From NCBI GenBank assembly GCA_001767915.1, contig MEMI01000008.1, positions 1,197-35,797 of the forward strand: a stretch of DNA of 34,601 bases, given 5' to 3'. Position numbers and translations under genes: made by a program. Numbering within the stretch: position 1 is the stretch's first letter; each line of letters begins with the position of its first letter. The notes below the pieces were generated by a model. That model searched no databases, had not been told where the DNA came from, and saw only the letters and a program-made list of their open reading frames with translations. Below are positions 14,666 through 29,426 of this stretch, in pieces. The DNA comes from Alphaproteobacteria bacterium RIFCSPHIGHO2_02_FULL_46_13. Its GTDB lineage: Bacteria; Pseudomonadota; Alphaproteobacteria; Micavibrionales; Micavibrionaceae.

Positions 14666-15496
14666 TTATTCAAGCTTTTCTTTTAGTGATTTTAAATAGC
14701 GGGTCAAAGGTGACACCTCTTTATATTCTTCCGCAAGACCTTCTTCGTACTGCGCGATAGTATCCAATTCTTTCCTCACATTTTCAATTAATTGAGGAAT
14801 AGAATCTCCAGGAACCGGCTCTGCCACTATAGACGACATGGCAAAATGAATGTCTGTATTTTCTTTCAGGATATAATTGAGGCGAGCCACAAATTTCAAA
14901 CCGCCATTATTATCCGAATGTTTTAAGCTGGAAATAAATTCACCATCGGCTGTGATATAGGCATCATCAAAGCTACGAATTGTTTTCAAAACAGCCTTTG
15001 AAGCGAGCAGAATATTAGCCGTATTTTTTCTATTTTCTTCACCATCAATGCGCGAGATAACAAAACAGAATGGCTGTCCACGGCGAGACCGTCTTTCCAG
15101 TTCGCGTTGAAGTTCAGGAATCATTCTGTCTTGAGTCTGCATCCCCGTCAATTCATCAATCCCGAAATCCGCCATCAATTGGCCATGTTCGAGTTTTTGA
15201 AGCGATGCTTGGAAATTTTCGAACGTCACCAAGAAAAGCTCCATCACATCTTTTGATGGCTTGGAATCAGCATTCATAATTTTCTTAGCCAGCTCATGCA
15301 AAATTCCCTGACTATCCAGAAGCCGAGAAGGTATTTTTAATCCTGCTTCGGTTTTAGAGGTTAATAATTCAGGAAACATAATCTCTTTACGATCAGCCAC
15401 AGAGTCATAGAGAGAAGACAACAAAATTTGCGTTAGCCATGCGGCGTAGTCGCTTTGAAGGGTCGCTAAAAAATGGATGTCTTTTTCATGTGTCAT
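14666..15496 (-). CDS. Degenerate GGDEF-domain protein
   Basis: Cytosolic protein of 276 residues with a GGDEF-like C-terminal half. The domain opens with the typical DELTGMQTQDRMIPELQREL and FCFVISRIDG (residues 113-152). The signature position, however, reads ADGEF (183-187) instead of GGDEF, and no RxxD inhibitory site precedes it. Diguanylate cyclase activity is therefore doubtful; a GTP-binding, c-di-GMP-independent or structural role is more likely. The N-terminal 110 residues are helical and unrecognised. It is placed between tgt and upp with 24 and 5 base gaps, as part of the rpmB transcription unit. The fold assignment is made by eye. Confidence 0.7.
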   Translation of the reverse strand: MTHEKDIHFLATLQSDYAAWLTQILLSSLYDSVADRKEIMFPELLTSKTEAGLKIPSRLLDSQGILHELAKKIMNADSKPSKDVMELFLVTFENFQASLQKLEHGQLMADFGIDELTGMQTQDRMIPELQRELERRSRRGQPFCFVISRIDGEENRKNTANILLASKAVLKTIRSFDDAYITADGEFISSLKHSDNNGGLKFVARLNYILKENTDIHFAMSSIVAEPVPGDSIPQLIENVRKELDTIAQYEEGLAEEYKEVSPLTRYLKSLKEKLE

Positions 15497-15520: not shown

Positions 15521-16726
15521 CTATTCTGGAAGCCACTCTTTTTTAAGCTGGTCGAGCGCCCCCGGCTGACCAGACTTGAGTGCCGCGCGGATTTCACGCA
15601 TCAATTTGGCAAGGGTTGCCACGTTATGCTGACTGACGATTTGAAAGGCCAGCATTTCGCCCACTTTAAACAAATGGTGAATATAGGATTTAGAGTAATA
15701 ACCTGACGTATAAAGCCCAAGCGTTTCATCCAGAACCGATTGGTCGTCTTTATATCTGGAGTTCAGAATGTTGATATACCCCTTCGGAGCGCCTTTCATC
15801 AGCACACGTCCATGACGCGCCTCACGCGTTGGAGTAACGCAGTCGAATGTATCCATCCCTTGCTTCACACCTTCGAAAATATCTTCGATTTTGCCGATGC
15901 CCAATAGATGGATCGGGCGATCAGGATGGAGACGCCCCGGAAGCCATGATAAAATTTCATAGAAGTGAACTTTTGTACCACCCAAACATCCGCCGACAGC
16001 CGTGCCAAAGAATGGACGACTGACCGTATAGTCGGCACTTTCTTCACGCAATTCACGATACACACCGCCCTGCACCACACCATACAAACCTTGAGTACCG
16101 TCATGCGCCGCATTAAACGCATTAAGGGATCTGTCGCCCCAACGATGGCTCATATGCATGGATTTTTCGGTATAGTCGCGGTCGGCGCTATGCGGAGTGC
16201 ATTCATCCATTTGAACGATGAGGTCAGCGCCGAGTTTGCGTTGAATCTCCATGGAAATTTCAGGGTTTAAACGGCAGATACTTCCGTCTTTATAAGACTT
16301 GAAAATCGCACCCAATTCTTCGTCGATTTTAATCAGTGATTTGCCACCGACACGACCTTTACCCTTAATCTCGTCAGCACCAGTACCAGTCCCCAACGAG
16401 AAAATCTGGAAGCCACCAGAGTCGGTCAACATCGGCCCATCCCAACCGCAAAATTTATGCAGCCCACCCATTTTTTGAACAAGGTCAGGCCCCGGTTGGA
16501 TATAAAGGTGATAAGTGTTCGAGAGCATGATGTCTGCCCCCGCCTCGCGCAATTGGTGCGGATGCAAATTCCGAACCGCGGCCTTTGTCCCCACGAAAAT
16601 AAAATTCGGGGTTTCAATTGTCCCGTGCGGCGTTTGTAAACGACCCAGACGAGCAAAAGATCCTGCATCTTTGTGCAGAACCTCAAAACCGAAATTCGGA
16701 TAATCTATCTTGGTGTTAAATTCCAA
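15521..16726 (-). CDS. tgt: tRNA-guanine transglycosylase, zinc-site-less variant
   Basis: TGT swaps guanine at tRNA position 34 for preQ1 (or queuine) in queuosine formation. The protein has 401 residues with DSGGFQIFSLG (Asp102), MDECTP (Cys176), YGVVQGGVY and the nucleophile motif FDCVTPTREARHG (Asp295). Oddly, the zinc ligands are gone: where family members read CDCYTC, this one reads LGLYTS (336-341), in an otherwise gapless match running into YSKSYIHHL; the His of QHN (367) is kept. The substrate loop is GGCLGGTK instead of GGLAVGE. The frame opens with TTG at 16726, eight bases after rpmB, without a clear ribosome binding site; no better start is visible. The family call is firm; activity and substrate are open. 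Confidence 0.92.
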   Translation of the reverse strand: MEFNTKIDYPNFGFEVLHKDAGSFARLGRLQTPHGTIETPNFIFVGTKAAVRNLHPHQLREAGADIMLSNTYHLYIQPGPDLVQKMGGLHKFCGWDGPMLTDSGGFQIFSLGTGTGADEIKGKGRVGGKSLIKIDEELGAIFKSYKDGSICRLNPEISMEIQRKLGADLIVQMDECTPHSADRDYTEKSMHMSHRWGDRSLNAFNAAHDGTQGLYGVVQGGVYRELREESADYTVSRPFFGTAVGGCLGGTKVHFYEILSWLPGRLHPDRPIHLLGIGKIEDIFEGVKQGMDTFDCVTPTREARHGRVLMKGAPKGYINILNSRYKDDQSVLDETLGLYTSGYYSKSYIHHLFKVGEMLAFQIVSQHNVATLAKLMREIRAALKSGQPGALDQLKKEWLPE

Positions 16727-16734
16727 GGTGAAAA

Positions 16735-17028
16735 CTAAGCAGCTTTAGCCGCAATAGCCTTTTCAACTTTTGCCTTCATGGAATGAAGCAAAGGATCAAG
16801 TTTAGATACCGGAGTATCCATCAGGAACTTGTCAAATCCGCCTTTGTGGTCAAGAGTACGAAGACCAGCAGTTGATACGCGGATACGAACAGTCACGTTC
16901 AAAGCTTCGCTGTAAACGCTAGTGTCTTGAATGTTCACATTGAACACACGGCGTGTTTTACGTTGGGAGTGGGATACACAGTTCCCGCTCATTAATTTTT
17001 TACCTGTAATCTGGCACTGACGACCCAT
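16735..17028 (-). CDS. rpmB: 50S ribosomal protein L28
   Basis: L28, a small protein of the large ribosomal subunit. The protein has 97 residues with the typical opening MGRQCQITGKK, NCVSHSQRKTRR and the core of RIRVSTAGLRTLDHKGGFD. The length is that of alphaproteobacterial L28 proteins, longer than the 78 residues of E. coli. ATG at 17028 follows AAGGA with nine bases between. It is the first gene of the unit rpmB-tgt-GGDEF-upp; the 217 bases upstream also hold the divergent promoter of the gene at 17246. Confidence 0.97.
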   Translation of the reverse strand: MGRQCQITGKKLMSGNCVSHSQRKTRRVFNVNIQDTSVYSEALNVTVRIRVSTAGLRTLDHKGGFDKFLMDTPVSKLDPLLHSMKAKVEKAIAAKAA

Positions 17029-21859: not shown

Positions 21860-21949
21860 GGGCAGGTGGCAGAGTGGTTGAATGCGCTAGTCTCGAAAAC
21901 TAGTATGGGTGCAAGCCCATCGGGGGTTCGAATCCCCCTCTGCCCGCCA
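21860..21949 (+). tRNA. tRNA-Ser (anticodon CGA)
   Basis: Complete type II tRNA of 90 nt including encoded CCA. The acceptor strands GGGCAGG (21860-21866) and TCTGCCC (21939-21945) pair with one G-U. The anticodon stem CTAGT/ACTAG (21887-21891 and 21899-21903) encloses loop CTCGAAA with anticodon CGA, reading UCG. A long variable arm (ATGGGTGCAAGCCCAT) is typical of serine. The T arm is GGGGG-TTCGAAT-CCCCC, and CCA is at 21947-21949. Its 3' end is duplicated 396 bp downstream. Confidence 0.97.
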
Positions 21950-22113
21950 CGAAGTCCCCAGACTTCCTGCTATCAGAGAATATATCCCTCAGTGCCCCGC
22001 AATTTGCGCCCTACACGCAAATCATATTTTAAGTCACACACCAGAGAATATCAAATTTGCTCCGAATATATCTGTTTTTCTCAGCAGCCCAATTTTCCGT
22101 GTGACTGGTCATA
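21926..22113 (+). repeat. 188-bp direct repeat, copy 1 (tRNA-linked)
   Basis: Starts in the T loop of the tRNA-Ser gene and runs 164 bp past its CCA. By eye it is about 91% identical to copy 2 at 22322-22509, with equal length and no net indel. Internal inverted repeats are GAAGT/ACTTC just after the tRNA, TTTGCG/CGCAAA (22003-22008 and 22016-22021) and AGTCACAC/GTGTGACT (22032-22039 and 22099-22106). It may be an attachment site with arms, or a structured RNA linked to the tRNA. Confidence 0.85.
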
Positions 22114-22321
22114 GTCTTTTCAGTTATAATTTTTACGAATTTGGGATTACCTTTTGGGTTAGTCACTGACTCTGATCTACCCATAGAGTCATTTCTAACT
22201 TTTCTCCGCATTTTTTTGATGATCATTAAGTTTAAAGAATTCATATAAAAAGCTACTTAAGTTATGGGTTTTCAAGACTTACAGCCATACAATAACAAAG
22301 ATTCAGCATAACATGACAACA
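22114..22321. other. AT-rich unique spacer between the repeats
   Basis: 208 bases with no credible gene. The only structure I see is a GACTCT/AGAGTC hairpin around 22168-22191. It is visibly AT-richer than the core genome. It could be the remnant of an integrated element bounded by the two repeat copies. Confidence 0.4.
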
Positions 22322-22509
22322 GTTCGAATCCCCTTTGCCCCGCCACGAAGTCCCCAGACTTCCCATTTTCAGAGAAAATACCCCTCAGTGCCCCGCAATT
22401 TGCGCCCTACCCGCAAATCATATTTCAAGTCACACACCAGAGAATATCAAATTTGCCCCTAATATATCTGCTTTTCTCAGCAGCCCAATTTGGCGTGTGA
22501 CTGGTCATA
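22322..22509 (+). repeat. 188-bp direct repeat, copy 2 (tRNA 3' fragment)
   Basis: Second copy. It opens with GTTCGAATCCCC and reaches CGCCACGAAG, a slightly decayed copy of the tRNA-Ser 3' end without the rest of the tRNA. The three inverted repeats of copy 1 are all kept, including AGTCACAC/GTGTGACT at 22428-22435 and 22495-22502, although about 17 bases differ. A 3' tRNA fragment at a distance is the expected mark of tRNA-targeted integration. The recombinase gene lies 130 bp further on. Confidence 0.85.
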
Positions 22510-22510
22510 T

Positions 22511-22550
22511 AAATTCCCTGCTATCAGGGAAAAAAACAGGGAATTTTATT
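22511..22550 (+). terminator. Hairpin with two alternative folds, likely terminator
   Basis: AAATTCCCTG (22511-22520) pairs with CAGGGAATTT (22537-22546), followed by TATTTTTA. A competing hairpin uses the same left arm: TCCCTG-CTAT-CAGGGA (22515-22530). The T-rich tail on the plus strand suggests termination of reading from the tRNA side; the two exclusive folds are unusual. Confidence 0.55.
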
Positions 22551-22571
22551 TTTAAAGACAGATTACAGGCA

Positions 22572-22598
22572 TAAAAAAGAGCCTTAAGTTTAAGGCCC
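22572..22598 (-). terminator. Rho-independent terminator of the recombinase unit
   Basis: Read on the minus strand: stem GCCTT, loop AAACTT, stem AAGGC (extendable inward), followed by TCTTTTTTAT. It lies about 45 bases after the recombinase stop codon, in the right orientation. Confidence 0.75.
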
Positions 22599-22641
22599 AT
22601 AATTGTAAAATTTCGAGAAATGATTAAAAAAGCAGTTTTCA

Positions 22642-24207
22642 CTACAGAGAATAACTGCGAGCATCCAAGCTGGCATTTATCAGCTTACCTACAAGCGCTT
22701 CCGAACAATTATTGTTCTGAGCAATAGATCTGATTGTCTTGCCATTGAAATGGTCTTGCCTCCAAGCAATTCCTTGCACTAGTCTTTTTAGACGATCCGG
22801 AGGCAATTTAAGAATATCTTCCGAAGCGCCCTCTGGTTGAATTAATATTGCCCCAGCTTTAGTTCTATTTACTTCATACGGAATATTAATGTCCGCAATA
22901 TCTTCTCCAATGGTTTCCGGCAAGCAAACTCCCAAGATAGCCTTAAATAGATTTTTGAGTTTGATAACATTGATTTTTATTTCTAGCCTTTCAGGATAAA
23001 CTACAATTTTCTTGATAAAATCAAATAAATCCACTTTCAAGATTTGATCGTTTTTTTTGGGAATTAACTGTAATTGTTGTACGTATCGATCATTTGGAAG
23101 GTTCAGAACTTGCTCCAATTTGAGGGGATGAAATAAATATTGGCGAATTTCCGTTTCTATTCTTAACTCCAATTCATGCGCTGGAAATCGGTCAATAATA
23201 CCTACTGGCTTTATTTTAAATTGAAGCACCGATTGATTTATATAGTAACGATATCGCTTATTACCTTTCATCGTATAAGTAGGACTATAATAATTACCAT
23301 CTTGGTCAAACAGCTTTCCTTTTAAGAAATTCCCCTCTTGTTGATCGTTTAAGGATCCTCGCTTTTTGCCTGCGTGTTCAGCCAATTTTTCTTGAACTTT
23401 ATCCCATAGCTCTTGTGTTAAAATTGGCTCATGCTGCCCTTCATAAATATGATTTTTATGAGCAATCTTACCTATGTAGATTGGATTACGCAGAATTTTA
23501 TAAAGGAGGCCTCGGCTAAAGTAGCATGCAGGATGGACTATACCTTTCTTTGAAACCCATTCTCTTGATTTAATTTGAAGTCGATCAAGTTCATTTTTGA
23601 CATCAGTAACCGAATCTAATCTTAAATATGTTTTATAAATTTTTTGTACTGTATCAGCAGACGCTTTATCTGGAACCAATTGCCGCCCTTCAACTCTATA
23701 CCCAATCGGGGATGCCCCTCCCATCCACATTCCTTTCTTTTTACTAGCGGCAATTTTGTCTCTTACTCTTTCCCCGATAACCTCACGTTCAAATTGGGCA
23801 AACGAGAGTAAAACGTTAAGAGTTAATCTGCCCATGGATGTTGTAGTGTTAAAGGATTGGGTTATGCTTACAAACGTGACACCATATTTATCAAATGTTT
23901 CGACAAGTTTGGAGAAATCCATTAAAGATCTTGTCAGACGATCAATCTTATATACGACAACAATATCAATTTTTCCTGCTTCAATATCTACGATCAGATT
24001 TTTAAGAGCTGGACGTTCTATATTGCCACCAGAATACCCCCCATCATCATAATGCGTTTTAACAGCCTGCCAGCCCTCTGCCTTTTGACTCAAAATATAA
24101 GCTTCACACGCCTCCCTTTGAGCATCAAGAGAGTTAAACTCCATATCAAGCCCCTCTTCTGTTGATTTACGAGTATAAATGGCACAATTTTTTACGAATA
24201 CCTTCAC
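22642..24207 (-). CDS. Serine recombinase (resolvase/invertase type, large)
   Basis: Site-specific serine recombinase of 521 residues that cuts and rejoins DNA through a serine linkage. The N-terminal resolvase domain has YTRKS with the catalytic Ser15, YDDGGYSGG, VYKIDRLTRSLMDF and FAQFEREVIGERVRDK. A recombinase domain follows (SPIGYRVEG, LLYKILRNPIYIGKI). The zinc-ribbon segment is cysteine-free (LKGKLFDQDGNYYSP), as in related alphaproteobacterial enzymes. The start is GTG at 24207 with GGGGAGG upstream, inside the end of the DUF2924 gene whose stop is two bases before. It is probably the integrase of the island or of a phage remnant. Confidence 0.93.
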   Translation of the reverse strand: MKVFVKNCAIYTRKSTEEGLDMEFNSLDAQREACEAYILSQKAEGWQAVKTHYDDGGYSGGNIERPALKNLIVDIEAGKIDIVVVYKIDRLTRSLMDFSKLVETFDKYGVTFVSITQSFNTTTSMGRLTLNVLLSFAQFEREVIGERVRDKIAASKKKGMWMGGASPIGYRVEGRQLVPDKASADTVQKIYKTYLRLDSVTDVKNELDRLQIKSREWVSKKGIVHPACYFSRGLLYKILRNPIYIGKIAHKNHIYEGQHEPILTQELWDKVQEKLAEHAGKKRGSLNDQQEGNFLKGKLFDQDGNYYSPTYTMKGNKRYRYYINQSVLQFKIKPVGIIDRFPAHELELRIETEIRQYLFHPLKLEQVLNLPNDRYVQQLQLIPKKNDQILKVDLFDFIKKIVVYPERLEIKINVIKLKNLFKAILGVCLPETIGEDIADINIPYEVNRTKAGAILIQPEGASEDILKLPPDRLKRLVQGIAWRQDHFNGKTIRSIAQNNNCSEALVGKLINASLDARSYSL

Positions 24208-24209
24208 TG

Positions 24210-24653
24210 TTATACCTCCCCTTTTGAAGCGGTTTTTTTAAGACCAAAGAAAACCCAACCGTTCCATCTTGTTCCAGTGATGCTTGAGGCGATTTTTGAC
24301 AAACTGCTAAATATTTTCCCTTGATAGCTAAATCCTTCGCCTTGAACAATTACTGAATAGGATTTTCCTCTCCATGTCCGAACTAATCTGGTTCCGGGTT
24401 TAAGAGATGCCGTTCTTTCAATGGTATCAGGTGATTTTTGATATGCCTTAACTAGATTTTCTAACCTCCCCTGCTGAATGGTTGAGAGGACCTCACCACT
24501 TTGCTCCTGCATTTTAAATAGAAGACTTTTTTCAAGCATAGGCCTGCTGAGGTGAATGGGGACTGACATTCCCCAAAGCTCGCTCCAGCGCGCATTGAGT
24601 ATTTCTCGGTCCATTTGTCTAATTATTTGTGTATGATCTAATTTGTTATTCAT
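24210..24653 (-). CDS. DUF2924 family protein
   Basis: A 147-residue basic protein of the DUF2924 family, often found directly before serine recombinases in alphaproteobacterial mobile DNA. Conserved features are the LW segment near the N-terminus (ARWSELWGMSVP), then LKPGTRLVRTWRGKSYSVIV and YQGKIFSSLSKIASSITGTRWNGWVFFGL. The last two resemble small beta-rich DNA-associated folds, but the function is not known. The ATG at 24653 overlaps the end of the 31-codon ORF by eight bases. An upstream GTG at 24665 is possible but lies inside that ORF. Its last codons carry the ribosome binding site of the recombinase, so the two are translationally tied. Confidence 0.85.
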   Translation of the reverse strand: MNNKLDHTQIIRQMDREILNARWSELWGMSVPIHLSRPMLEKSLLFKMQEQSGEVLSTIQQGRLENLVKAYQKSPDTIERTASLKPGTRLVRTWRGKSYSVIVQGEGFSYQGKIFSSLSKIASSITGTRWNGWVFFGLKKTASKGEV

Positions 24654-24741
24654 AGATCCATACACGCTCTTGGTATGAAAGAAGTCCAGTCAATTTTGGT
24701 TGATTATTCCGGATGTTTTGTGATGATTGACTTTGCTGCAT
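24646..24741 (-). CDS. Small ORF (31 residues) coupled to DUF2924
   Basis: A short ORF with an ideal AGGAGG five bases before its ATG (24741-24739), the best ribosome binding site in this unit. The peptide is polar and Gln/Ser-rich at the start and ends LTGLLSYQERVWIYE. Its TAA overlaps the DUF2924 ATG (ATGAATAA), so ribosomes ending here could restart on DUF2924. It may be a leader peptide for coupling or a real small protein. I know no family for it. The end of its coding sequence is half of a short direct repeat. Confidence 0.5.
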   Translation of the reverse strand: MQQSQSSQNIRNNQPKLTGLLSYQERVWIYE

Positions 24742-27714: not shown

Positions 27715-28020
27715 TCACTCCCATACAGGAATGTGATTATCTATTATTTTGAAGAGTATTTTAGCGTACTCTGCATCTTCTGTTGCCAGTTTCATTAATT
27801 GTGAGATTAAGAGCCTTTTTCGGGTAAACTTTCTAATTCGGCCAGTTTTCTTATCTTGGACATCAATTAATCTGTTCAATTCCTCAAGTATAGTTAATCC
27901 CAATGACTTTTTCTTCTTTGGTCTACCTTTAGGATTTCCACTTTTACCCTTTTTAAAGCGATTTTTTTGTGGTGGCTTGCGGTAACCAACTTCATATTCA
28001 GAATCATCATCTTTACTCAT
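27715..28020 (-). CDS. DUF5681 domain protein
   Basis: A 101-residue, very basic protein with the DUF5681 signature: VGYRKPPQKNRFKKGKSGNPKGRPKK, here seen around residues 11-36 and matching the usual GYGKPP, F-x-PG-x-SGNPKGRP pattern. The C-terminal half is helical (LLISQLMKLATEDAEYAKIL). Such proteins are common next to phage DNA-processing genes, often close to a terminase; the function is not established. Its ATG overlaps the stop of the methyltransferase gene (ATGA), so they are coupled. Confidence 0.85.
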   Translation of the reverse strand: MSKDDDSEYEVGYRKPPQKNRFKKGKSGNPKGRPKKKKSLGLTILEELNRLIDVQDKKTGRIRKFTRKRLLISQLMKLATEDAEYAKILFKIIDNHIPVWE

Positions 28021-29426
28021 TTTGCACCTACTTTCTTGTTCAATCGAATAATTGACATTTCATCAAATGTTTTTCCTGTTTCATCCAAAACAGCACTTTG
28101 CCCTGTATATCTTTCCCAACGGCGGACACTTGTATCAACATATGTCTCATCAAGTTCAATTGCCCTCGCACAACGTCCTGTGAGGTGAGCAGCTACTAAT
28201 ATTGTTCCGCTGCCACAGAAAGGATCCAGAATGATGCTTTGTTTATGACTACAGTCTCGAATTGCATCGGCAATTAGACTAAATGGCTTTACAGTGGGAT
28301 GAAGTTCTAAAAGCTTATTACCCTTGCCTTTGAAAGTATTTGCCCCTGGATAGTTCCATACATTTGTTCTGTATCGAAATTTACCAAGTTCAAAATTATT
28401 TATGTGTCCAGATGATCCTTTTCTAAAGACAAAGACTAATTCATGTTGTGATCGATAAAAAGTTCCCATTCCTCCATTGTCCTTAACCCATACACAAAGC
28501 TGCGCAAGTTCTCCAAATTTCTTTTCACCCGCCTCTTGAACTTCGCGCATATGCCTCCAGTCCATGAAACTAAATATCGTTGCATTCTTGGATGTGTTTC
28601 CTGAAATATGACCAAAAACAGTCGAAAGGAAATCAGTAAACTCCTTTATACTCAACTCACCATAAGCCATTCTAAAATCTTCGTGCTTATTCTTACCCTT
28701 TCCGCAGATATGACCTTTAGTCTTTACGTTATAAGGAGGATCGGTTACGCAAAGATCAGCAACCCTTCCCTCCATGACTGCCTCATAGGAAGATTTTTGC
28801 AATGAATCGCCGCAATATAATCTATGAGGGCCGCAAATCCACAAGTCGCCTTTTCTAGAGACAGTTTCCTTTGGTATATCCTCATATTCTAGCTCAGCGC
28901 CGTCCTCAGGCTGAGCTAATATATCCGGCATAATGGTATCAATCTCAGCCGTGGAAAATCCTGTGCATTGTAAGTCATAGCCCTCCACTAATAACTCATC
29001 AAATTGATAGGTTAATAGATCAGTATCCCATTGCCCCATTTGAGCCAGTTTGTTGTCGGCAATCACATATGCACGTTTTTCTTTTTTCGAGAGTCCTCTT
29101 AAAACGACAACTGGAACTTCTTTTAACCCTATTCTTTTGGCAGCTTCACTTCGGCCATGTCCCGCCAAGATGGTTCTTTTGTCATCAATCAAAATAGGAT
29201 TAGTAAATCCAAATTCTTTAATTGATGCTTCAAGTGCAGATAGTTGTTTATCGCCATGGATTCTTGGATTTTTATCCCATGGAACAAGCTTATCAGGGGG
29301 CAGATAAACAATTTCTTTCTCCAATCTTTTAGCCGATTTAATTGGAGAAGATTGAACTTCTGGGGTTCGAAAAAGCTTCTTCTTAGCAGATTTCTTGATT
29401 TTTTTGATATTAGTTATTTCTAGCAT
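28017..29426 (-). CDS. ParB-domain/DNA methyltransferase fusion
   Basis: A 469-residue solitary DNA methyltransferase with an N-terminal ParB/Srx-like domain (about 39-130: VPWDKNPRIHGDKQ, ILAGHGRSEAAKRIG). The methylase part has the catalytic motif DPPY at 229-232 before the SAM-binding motif (DPFCGSGTILVAAHLTG, about 400), the order of the N4/N6-amino beta group. HPTVKP precedes it. No restriction enzyme is adjacent, so it is more likely a phage or island modification enzyme than part of a restriction system. ATG at 29426 has AGGAG eight bases upstream. Target base and site cannot be read from sequence. Confidence 0.92.
   Translation of the reverse strand: MLEITNIKKIKKSAKKKLFRTPEVQSSPIKSAKRLEKEIVYLPPDKLVPWDKNPRIHGDKQLSALEASIKEFGFTNPILIDDKRTILAGHGRSEAAKRIGLKEVPVVVLRGLSKKEKRAYVIADNKLAQMGQWDTDLLTYQFDELLVEGYDLQCTGFSTAEIDTIMPDILAQPEDGAELEYEDIPKETVSRKGDLWICGPHRLYCGDSLQKSSYEAVMEGRVADLCVTDPPYNVKTKGHICGKGKNKHEDFRMAYGELSIKEFTDFLSTVFGHISGNTSKNATIFSFMDWRHMREVQEAGEKKFGELAQLCVWVKDNGGMGTFYRSQHELVFVFRKGSSGHINNFELGKFRYRTNVWNYPGANTFKGKGNKLLELHPTVKPFSLIADAIRDCSHKQSIILDPFCGSGTILVAAHLTGRCARAIELDETYVDTSVRRWERYTGQSAVLDETGKTFDEMSIIRLNKKVGAK

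Follow-up and report, generated by a model that had tools for sequence, protein, structure and literature searches.

A tRNA-guanine transglycosylase without zinc cysteines, probably zinc-free, in an alphaproteobacterial genus with QueA and QueH

Published accounts treat tRNA-guanine transglycosylase (TGT) as a zinc enzyme (PMC9508795, PMC6165067). The metal is said to be required for activity, which counts against any zinc-free reading (PMC9508795), and in the human enzyme the zinc cysteines are residues 317, 319 and 322 (PMC6165067). TGT has drawn interest as a target for drugs against shigellosis, and four aromatic residues have been named as the hot spot of its dimer (PMC5395182).

For queuine-type bacterial TGT, GG[LS][AS]G has been given as the "typical" loop motif (PMC11570991). 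The V233G variant of Zymomonas mobilis TGT did not have lower preQ1 affinity, its kcat was down tenfold and no queuine enzyme was made; the position of Z. mobilis Cys158 is Val in eukaryotes (PMC3660597). No description of a natural zinc-less TGT was found in the titles and abstract openings of a collection of mostly open-access PMC papers, and a search of the same scope for queuosine with Micavibrio gave none either.

The tgt gene and its former zinc site

The window is the whole stretch of DNA that was analysed, 34,601 nucleotides of contig MEMI01000008.1 from Alphaproteobacteria bacterium RIFCSPHIGHO2_02_FULL_46_13. The product of its tgt gene (Table 1) scores 393.2 bits against TIGR00430 (tRNA-guanine(34) transglycosylase), above the curated equivalog cut-off of 306.75, and 378.3 bits against PF01702. 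It is the sole PF01702 match in the source genome (2.13 Mb), so a second, zinc-bearing TGT elsewhere is ruled out in this assembly, which is 97.24% complete. Among named genomes in the collection, three Micavibrio sp. MAGs come closest, with 58-61% identity, which suggests a position in or near Micavibrionales, class Alphaproteobacteria.

The ORF directly downstream of tgt (14666-15496) matches a diguanylate cyclase model only weakly (34.6 bits against a cut-off of 256) and had no match in a Pfam profile search. Further along the window, positions 21860-24665 hold a tRNA-Ser (cga), then an ORF judged by eye to be serine-recombinase-like (22642-24207) and ORFs of unknown function; by eye, this region looks like the edge of an integrated element. 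ORF 28017-29426 resembles, by eye, ParB plus a DNA methyltransferase.

Table 1. Features of the window discussed in the text; residue numbers are those of the window TGT unless marked Zm (Z. mobilis)
Feature	Coordinates	Strand	Basis or remark
tgt, tRNA-guanine transglycosylase without zinc cysteines	15521..16726	(-)	401 aa, TTG start
rpmB (ribosomal protein L28), immediately upstream of tgt and on its strand	16735..17028	(-)	TIGR00009 76.1 bits, cut-off 48.3
Asp102, catalytic aspartate position	16421..16423	(-)	mapping onto 1ozm
17-residue insert, residues 114-130, after DSGGFQIFSL	16337..16387	(-)	alignments; common to the short-loop clade
Substrate loop GGCLGGTK (residues 245-252), shorter by one residue than the preQ1-enzyme loop	15971..15994	(-)	alignments
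Asp295, position of catalytic Zm Asp280	15842..15844	(-)	mapping onto 1ozm
Gly316	15779..15781	(-)	Glu in 34/39 short-loop rows without a QueA match, 0/15 with one
Former zinc motif LGLYTS (residues 336-341), where zinc enzymes have CxCxxC	15704..15721	(-)	alignments
His367, fourth zinc ligand position (Zm 349), kept	15626..15628	(-)	alignment to 1ozm

Positions 318, 320, 323 and 349 of Z. mobilis TGT are taken by us to be its zinc ligands. Cysteines 318, 320 and 323 of structure 1ozm align with L336, L338 and S341 of the window TGT with no gap. The sequence-only reading had claimed that the three cysteines are replaced by LGLYTS in a gapless alignment, with the histidine and the catalytic aspartates retained, and the mapping onto 1ozm bears this out. 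Where zinc-containing TGTs have CxCxxC and a histidine, the window TGT has LxLxxS and a histidine.

The window TGT is like the zinc TGT of Z. mobilis (1pud/1ozm; TIGR00430) in its fold, its pair of catalytic aspartates and the positions of Lys264, Arg286 and Arg289. The positions of Gln203 and Asp267 are kept as well; Asp156 of Z. mobilis is D174 in the window TGT in the mapping onto 1ozm. The residues matching the aromatic dimer cluster F92/W326/Y330/H333 are F92/Y344/Y348/H351, so that three hot-spot residues (F92, Y330 and H333) are identical and Trp326 is replaced by Tyr. The window TGT is unlike the Z. mobilis enzyme in this replacement, in having neither the zinc cysteines nor Glu235, in its loop, which is one residue shorter, and in its 17-residue insert. 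It shares with human QTRT1 a Phe at the Tyr106 position, the human Phe being implied in PMC3660597, whereas QTRT1 keeps zinc and has Val where the window TGT, like Z. mobilis, has Cys158 (PMC6165067, PMC3660597).

The gene looks to be under purifying selection from its sequence comparisons. Of nine pairs within the genus, four could be computed and gave dN/dS values of 0.007, 0.023, 0.027 and 0.038; dS was above 1.4 in three of these four, and the other five pairs were saturated. The AlphaFold model has a mean pLDDT of 92.7, and the only stretch of at least three residues with pLDDT below 50 is 114-126, within the insert. Superposed on Z. mobilis TGT 1q2r, the model gives a Z of 52.6 and an rmsd of 1.6 over 370 residues, and fold searches with it returned TGT and nothing beyond. 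Structure prediction had been named as a check by the sequence-only reading, and in the model the TGT barrel fold is intact. The ten-residue blocks 331-340 and 341-350, which cover the former zinc knuckle, have pLDDT values of 97 and 98. AlphaFold models no metal and yet models metal sites well, so high pLDDT in the zinc region is weak proof that zinc is absent.

Distribution of zinc-site loss

A TGT was counted as lacking the zinc site when it had none or one of the three cysteines, one-cysteine rows thus being counted as lacking. TGT was found in 10 of the 11 genomes of the genus, all ten without the zinc cysteines; the search of the remaining member, G006, gave no TGT match. The genus sequence at the CxCxxC knuckle is [LV]x[LI]xxS. 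TGT was present in 34 of the 38 genomes of the order sample, and 29 of these 34 lack the site while five keep it. The check on close relatives therefore came out in favour of a shared change. A sequencing error behind the cysteine loss is ruled out, as the change is common to all ten genus TGTs read.

Further TGTs of the class lacked the site in 14 of 62 cases (65 other genomes had a match; G068, G106 and G108, with fragment matches only, were left unread), and Bacteroidota TGTs in 22 of 30 (31 genomes, with G141 left out). The curated TIGR00430 model does not hinge on the zinc site, since these 22 Bacteroidota TGTs also do without it. The loss is not peculiar to this protein; it recurs among the bacterial TGTs sampled. 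The window TGT is like these 22 in having no CxCxxC, and its genome is like those of Bacteroidota in having QueA, which was present in all six Bacteroidota genomes tested. Unlike the window TGT, these Bacteroidota TGTs have an ordinary GG[LM][AS]VGE loop, and the six included in the 175-row tree form a separate, insert-free group there.

Among 175 aligned rows, 122 have three cysteines, none has two, 11 have one and 42 have none; the 30 Bacteroidota rows divide into eight with three, none with two, seven with one and 15 with none. As no row has two cysteines in either set, the zinc site goes as a unit. The zinc-ligand histidine is present in all 122 three-cysteine rows. It is also present in all 29 zinc-less order TGTs, is replaced in four of the 14 zinc-less class rows and is Gln in 12 of the 22 zinc-less Bacteroidota rows. 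A fragment (L120) and a divergent second copy (L179) were excluded from the cysteine counts and trees, and L177, L178 and L133 gave no usable row. The excluded second copy lies on contig 10 of G071 and is a divergent TGT-like protein without zinc cysteines; the same contig carries an ordinary-loop TGT (L192), also without the zinc site.

On a quick tree of the 175 rows, built with the trait columns left out, the zinc label needs 13 changes, at least five of them forced by supported branches; its sampling is biased towards relatives of the query, and 63 of its 172 inner branches are open. On a carefully built tree of 54 rows from the short-loop clade, in which the divergent L049 and L050 serve as outgroup and L088 is omitted, the label needs four changes, at least two of them forced. 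Change counts on trees do not separate gain from loss; the direction is read as loss because the outgroup rows carry the zinc site and the solved enzymes contain zinc. Zinc-site loss thus seems, on these sequences, to have happened repeatedly in bacteria.

Substrate loop and queuosine genes

The sequence-only reading had also placed a glycine at the position of Z. mobilis Val233 and suggested a base specificity changed towards queuine. Against the preQ1-enzyme loop GGLAVGEG, the window loop GGCLGGTK has one residue fewer before the next anchor, and the assignment "Val233 = Gly" hinges on where the gap is placed because the loop is one residue shorter. With phmmer, Gly pairs with 233 in both alignments to V233G mutant chains and Leu248 pairs with 233 of 1ozm; hhalign and hmmsearch with preQ1-enzyme profiles put the gap right after GG, which leaves Leu at the Val233 position. 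The glycine is therefore not robust, with phmmer split and the profile alignments favouring Leu. The loop sequence itself stands, as does the loss of Glu235, which pairs with Gly or Thr depending on the alignment. GGCLGGTK does not have the form GGL[AS]VGE of preQ1-type loops, nor that of the queuine motif, since GGCLG has Cys and Leu at the bracketed positions.

The short loop and the insert occur together with all three cysteines in 5 of the 34 order rows and in 9 of the 12 short-loop class rows. Since zinc-keeping relatives share both, the loop and the insert appear to predate the zinc loss here. A coupling of zinc loss to the loop change is ruled out by these three-cysteine short-loop TGTs and by zinc-less TGTs with an ordinary loop.

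The source genome encodes QueA (449.9 bits against a cut-off of 324) and QueH (224.5 bits against a Pfam cut-off of 23.5; no NCBIfam family was assigned to it). QueA with QueG or QueH marks a preQ1-type genome, and here it is QueA and QueH; the queuine-type pattern, tgt without QueA and QueG/QueH, is not that of the source genome. QueA was found in 11 of 11 genomes of the genus and QueH in 10 of 11. QueA and QueH act after preQ1 insertion, and with both retained the proposed change towards queuine finds no support in the genus. QueG was found in none of the 38 order genomes, and 7 of 14 control genomes were positive. A queuosine-precursor transporter (QPTR/YhhQ, PF02592) was found in 9 of the 38 order genomes and in 3 of 11 of the genus; it was not found in the source genome or in 8 of 11 genus genomes, which counts against preQ1 salvage. 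Salvage genomes without known transporters have been noted elsewhere too (PMC11130926).

Across the order sample, 15 of the 38 genomes have QueA (14 of these, and no others, have QueH), six have QueC and QueF without QueA, and 17 have neither QueA nor QueF; among the 34 TGT-bearing genomes the figures are 13, six and 15. QueF was over the cut-off in the same six of 38. Full-length QueC occurs in nine, these six plus the genus members G001, G004 and G005. The sequence-only reading had suggested looking for queF and queC, among others, in the genome; across the genus, QueF was over the cut-off in none of the 11 genomes, with one weak match in G005, and QueC is present in three. In G001 and G004 the full-length QueC (L199 5683-6384; L200 4554-5255) has no partners recognised nearby; no QueE or QueF was recognised by eye among ATG ORFs of more than 130 aa, a search in which a short QueD could be missed. 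With these two partnerless QueC genes, the genus does retain some preQ0-pathway genes. The G005 QueC (contig 283, L132) has FolE and a QueE below the cut-off as neighbours, together with ORFs that by eye resemble QueD, ParB and terminase. It looks phage-borne because FolE, QueE and the QueD-like and terminase-like ORFs surround it, and L132 may hold phage genes for placing 7-deazaguanine in DNA. ORF 4850-5770 on L132 had no NCBIfam match.

The TGT-bearing genome G015 carries a queF-queE-queD-queC cluster on contig 18 (L130 5055-7295), in which queF, queE and queC are over the cut-off and queD reaches 82.5 bits against 89.25. It gave no QueA or QueH match. By analogy with Bartonella, for which this is reported in traces, tRNA modification in G015 may end at preQ1.

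Gly occupies position 316 in 117 of 121 insert-free rows; in the QueA-bearing short-loop lines the residue is Gly, Asn, Met, Asp or Phe. The pooled 54 short-loop rows comprise 34 with Glu and no QueA, 15 with QueA and no Glu, and five with neither; the QueA match behind row L050 is partial. A prediction fixed beforehand, that Glu316 goes with absence of QueA, was right in nine of nine genomes. The reverse prediction, that a residue other than Glu goes with QueA, was right in none of three genomes, which are 75%, 84% and 99% complete. The link between residue 316 and QueA is a lead only, as a tree-based sign test reaches only p 0.125.

A dual or shifting specificity is possible, and we hold it tentatively. 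The short-loop scaffold would take both preQ1 and queuine, and each lineage would use what its pathway and its neighbours offer. One short-loop scaffold does stand alongside three gene sets within a single order, and for the Bartonella TGT the use of preQ1 and, at high concentration, of queuine has been reported (PMC11570991), although that precedent enzyme has a preQ1-type loop. The probabilities that we attach to the readings do not sum to one because dual specificity overlaps with our preferred reading.

A queuine-specific TGT as in Chlamydia appears unlikely. Here the short loop would open the pocket, free queuine would be inserted directly, and QueA and QueH would be leftovers or serve occasional preQ1. 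The window TGT is like the Chlamydia trachomatis type (PMC11570991) in a loop that differs from the GGLAVG of preQ1 enzymes; compared through the published motif it is unlike that type, as its GGCLG misfits GG[LS][AS]G and QueA and QueH are present. The lost Glu235 of preQ1 enzymes speaks for queuine, while Cys158, Val in eukaryotes, is kept. Outside the genus many gene sets fit queuine use: both QueA and an above-cut-off QueF are missing from 15 of the 34 order genomes with a TGT, QueA is missing in 13 of 14 further genomes and in five of six short-loop genomes tested, and genomes with tgt alone are predicted in the field to salvage queuine (PMC11570991). The presence of QueA throughout the genus and of QueH in 10 of its 11 genomes argues against carrying this over to the window TGT, as does its Gly316, the residue of insert-free rows, where most QueA-lacking short-loop rows have Glu.

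A probably zinc-free enzyme with a proposed part in preQ1 salvage

Two alternatives concern the metal and the activity. Zinc still bound through other ligands near His367 is very improbable. All 29 zinc-less order TGTs retain His367, yet the stretch compared over ten genus rows holds no conserved cysteine, and its only conserved histidines are H367 and H351, the latter at a dimer hot-spot position. A decaying or inactive TGT heading for loss is scarcely credible: the lost site is said to be required (PMC9508795) and G006 gave no TGT match, but dN/dS is below 0.04 in the computable pairs, the catalytic residues are kept and every genus genome has QueA.

Our preferred reading, which we consider probable, is a zinc-free TGT of ordinary fold that inserts salvaged preQ1, after which QueA and QueH finish queuosine. 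The protein would be a bacterial tRNA-guanine-34 transglycosylase that has lost its structural zinc, with the genus knuckle packing by side chains in place of the metal. The zinc-free part, as proposed by the sequence-only reading, is well supported by the shared all-or-none cysteine loss, the apparent purifying selection and the confident model. The retention of His367 in all 29 zinc-less order TGTs counts against a dead zinc site, which need not have kept it. The chemistry is presumably unchanged, with Asp102 and Asp295 as the catalytic pair.

The window genus carries the gene set expected for preQ1 salvage. The substrate would be preQ1, placed at G34 of GUN tRNAs and probably taken up from outside the cell, and QueA and QueH would complete queuosine on the tRNA. 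Because the window TGT is the sole TGT feeding QueA, it must, by a tight inference, insert preQ1. Queuine use is possible, and likelier in QueA-lacking relatives.

A wider conjecture is to be treated with caution, and we think it doubtful as a whole. The zinc of TGT would be dispensable and would have been shed many times, including in most Bacteroidota, each time with another packing. Within the short-loop clade, substrate use would have switched several times between queuine and preQ1 as QueA and QueH were lost and regained, and residue 316 would be part of the switch.

If large natural groups of TGT work without zinc, the metal would be a removable brace and not part of the mechanism. If true, several independent natural solutions to the loss of zinc would be open to comparison. 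The genus further indicates that queuine use should not be taken as proven by a short loop lacking the Val-Gly-Glu series, a point of weight when salvage pathways are read from sequence alone.
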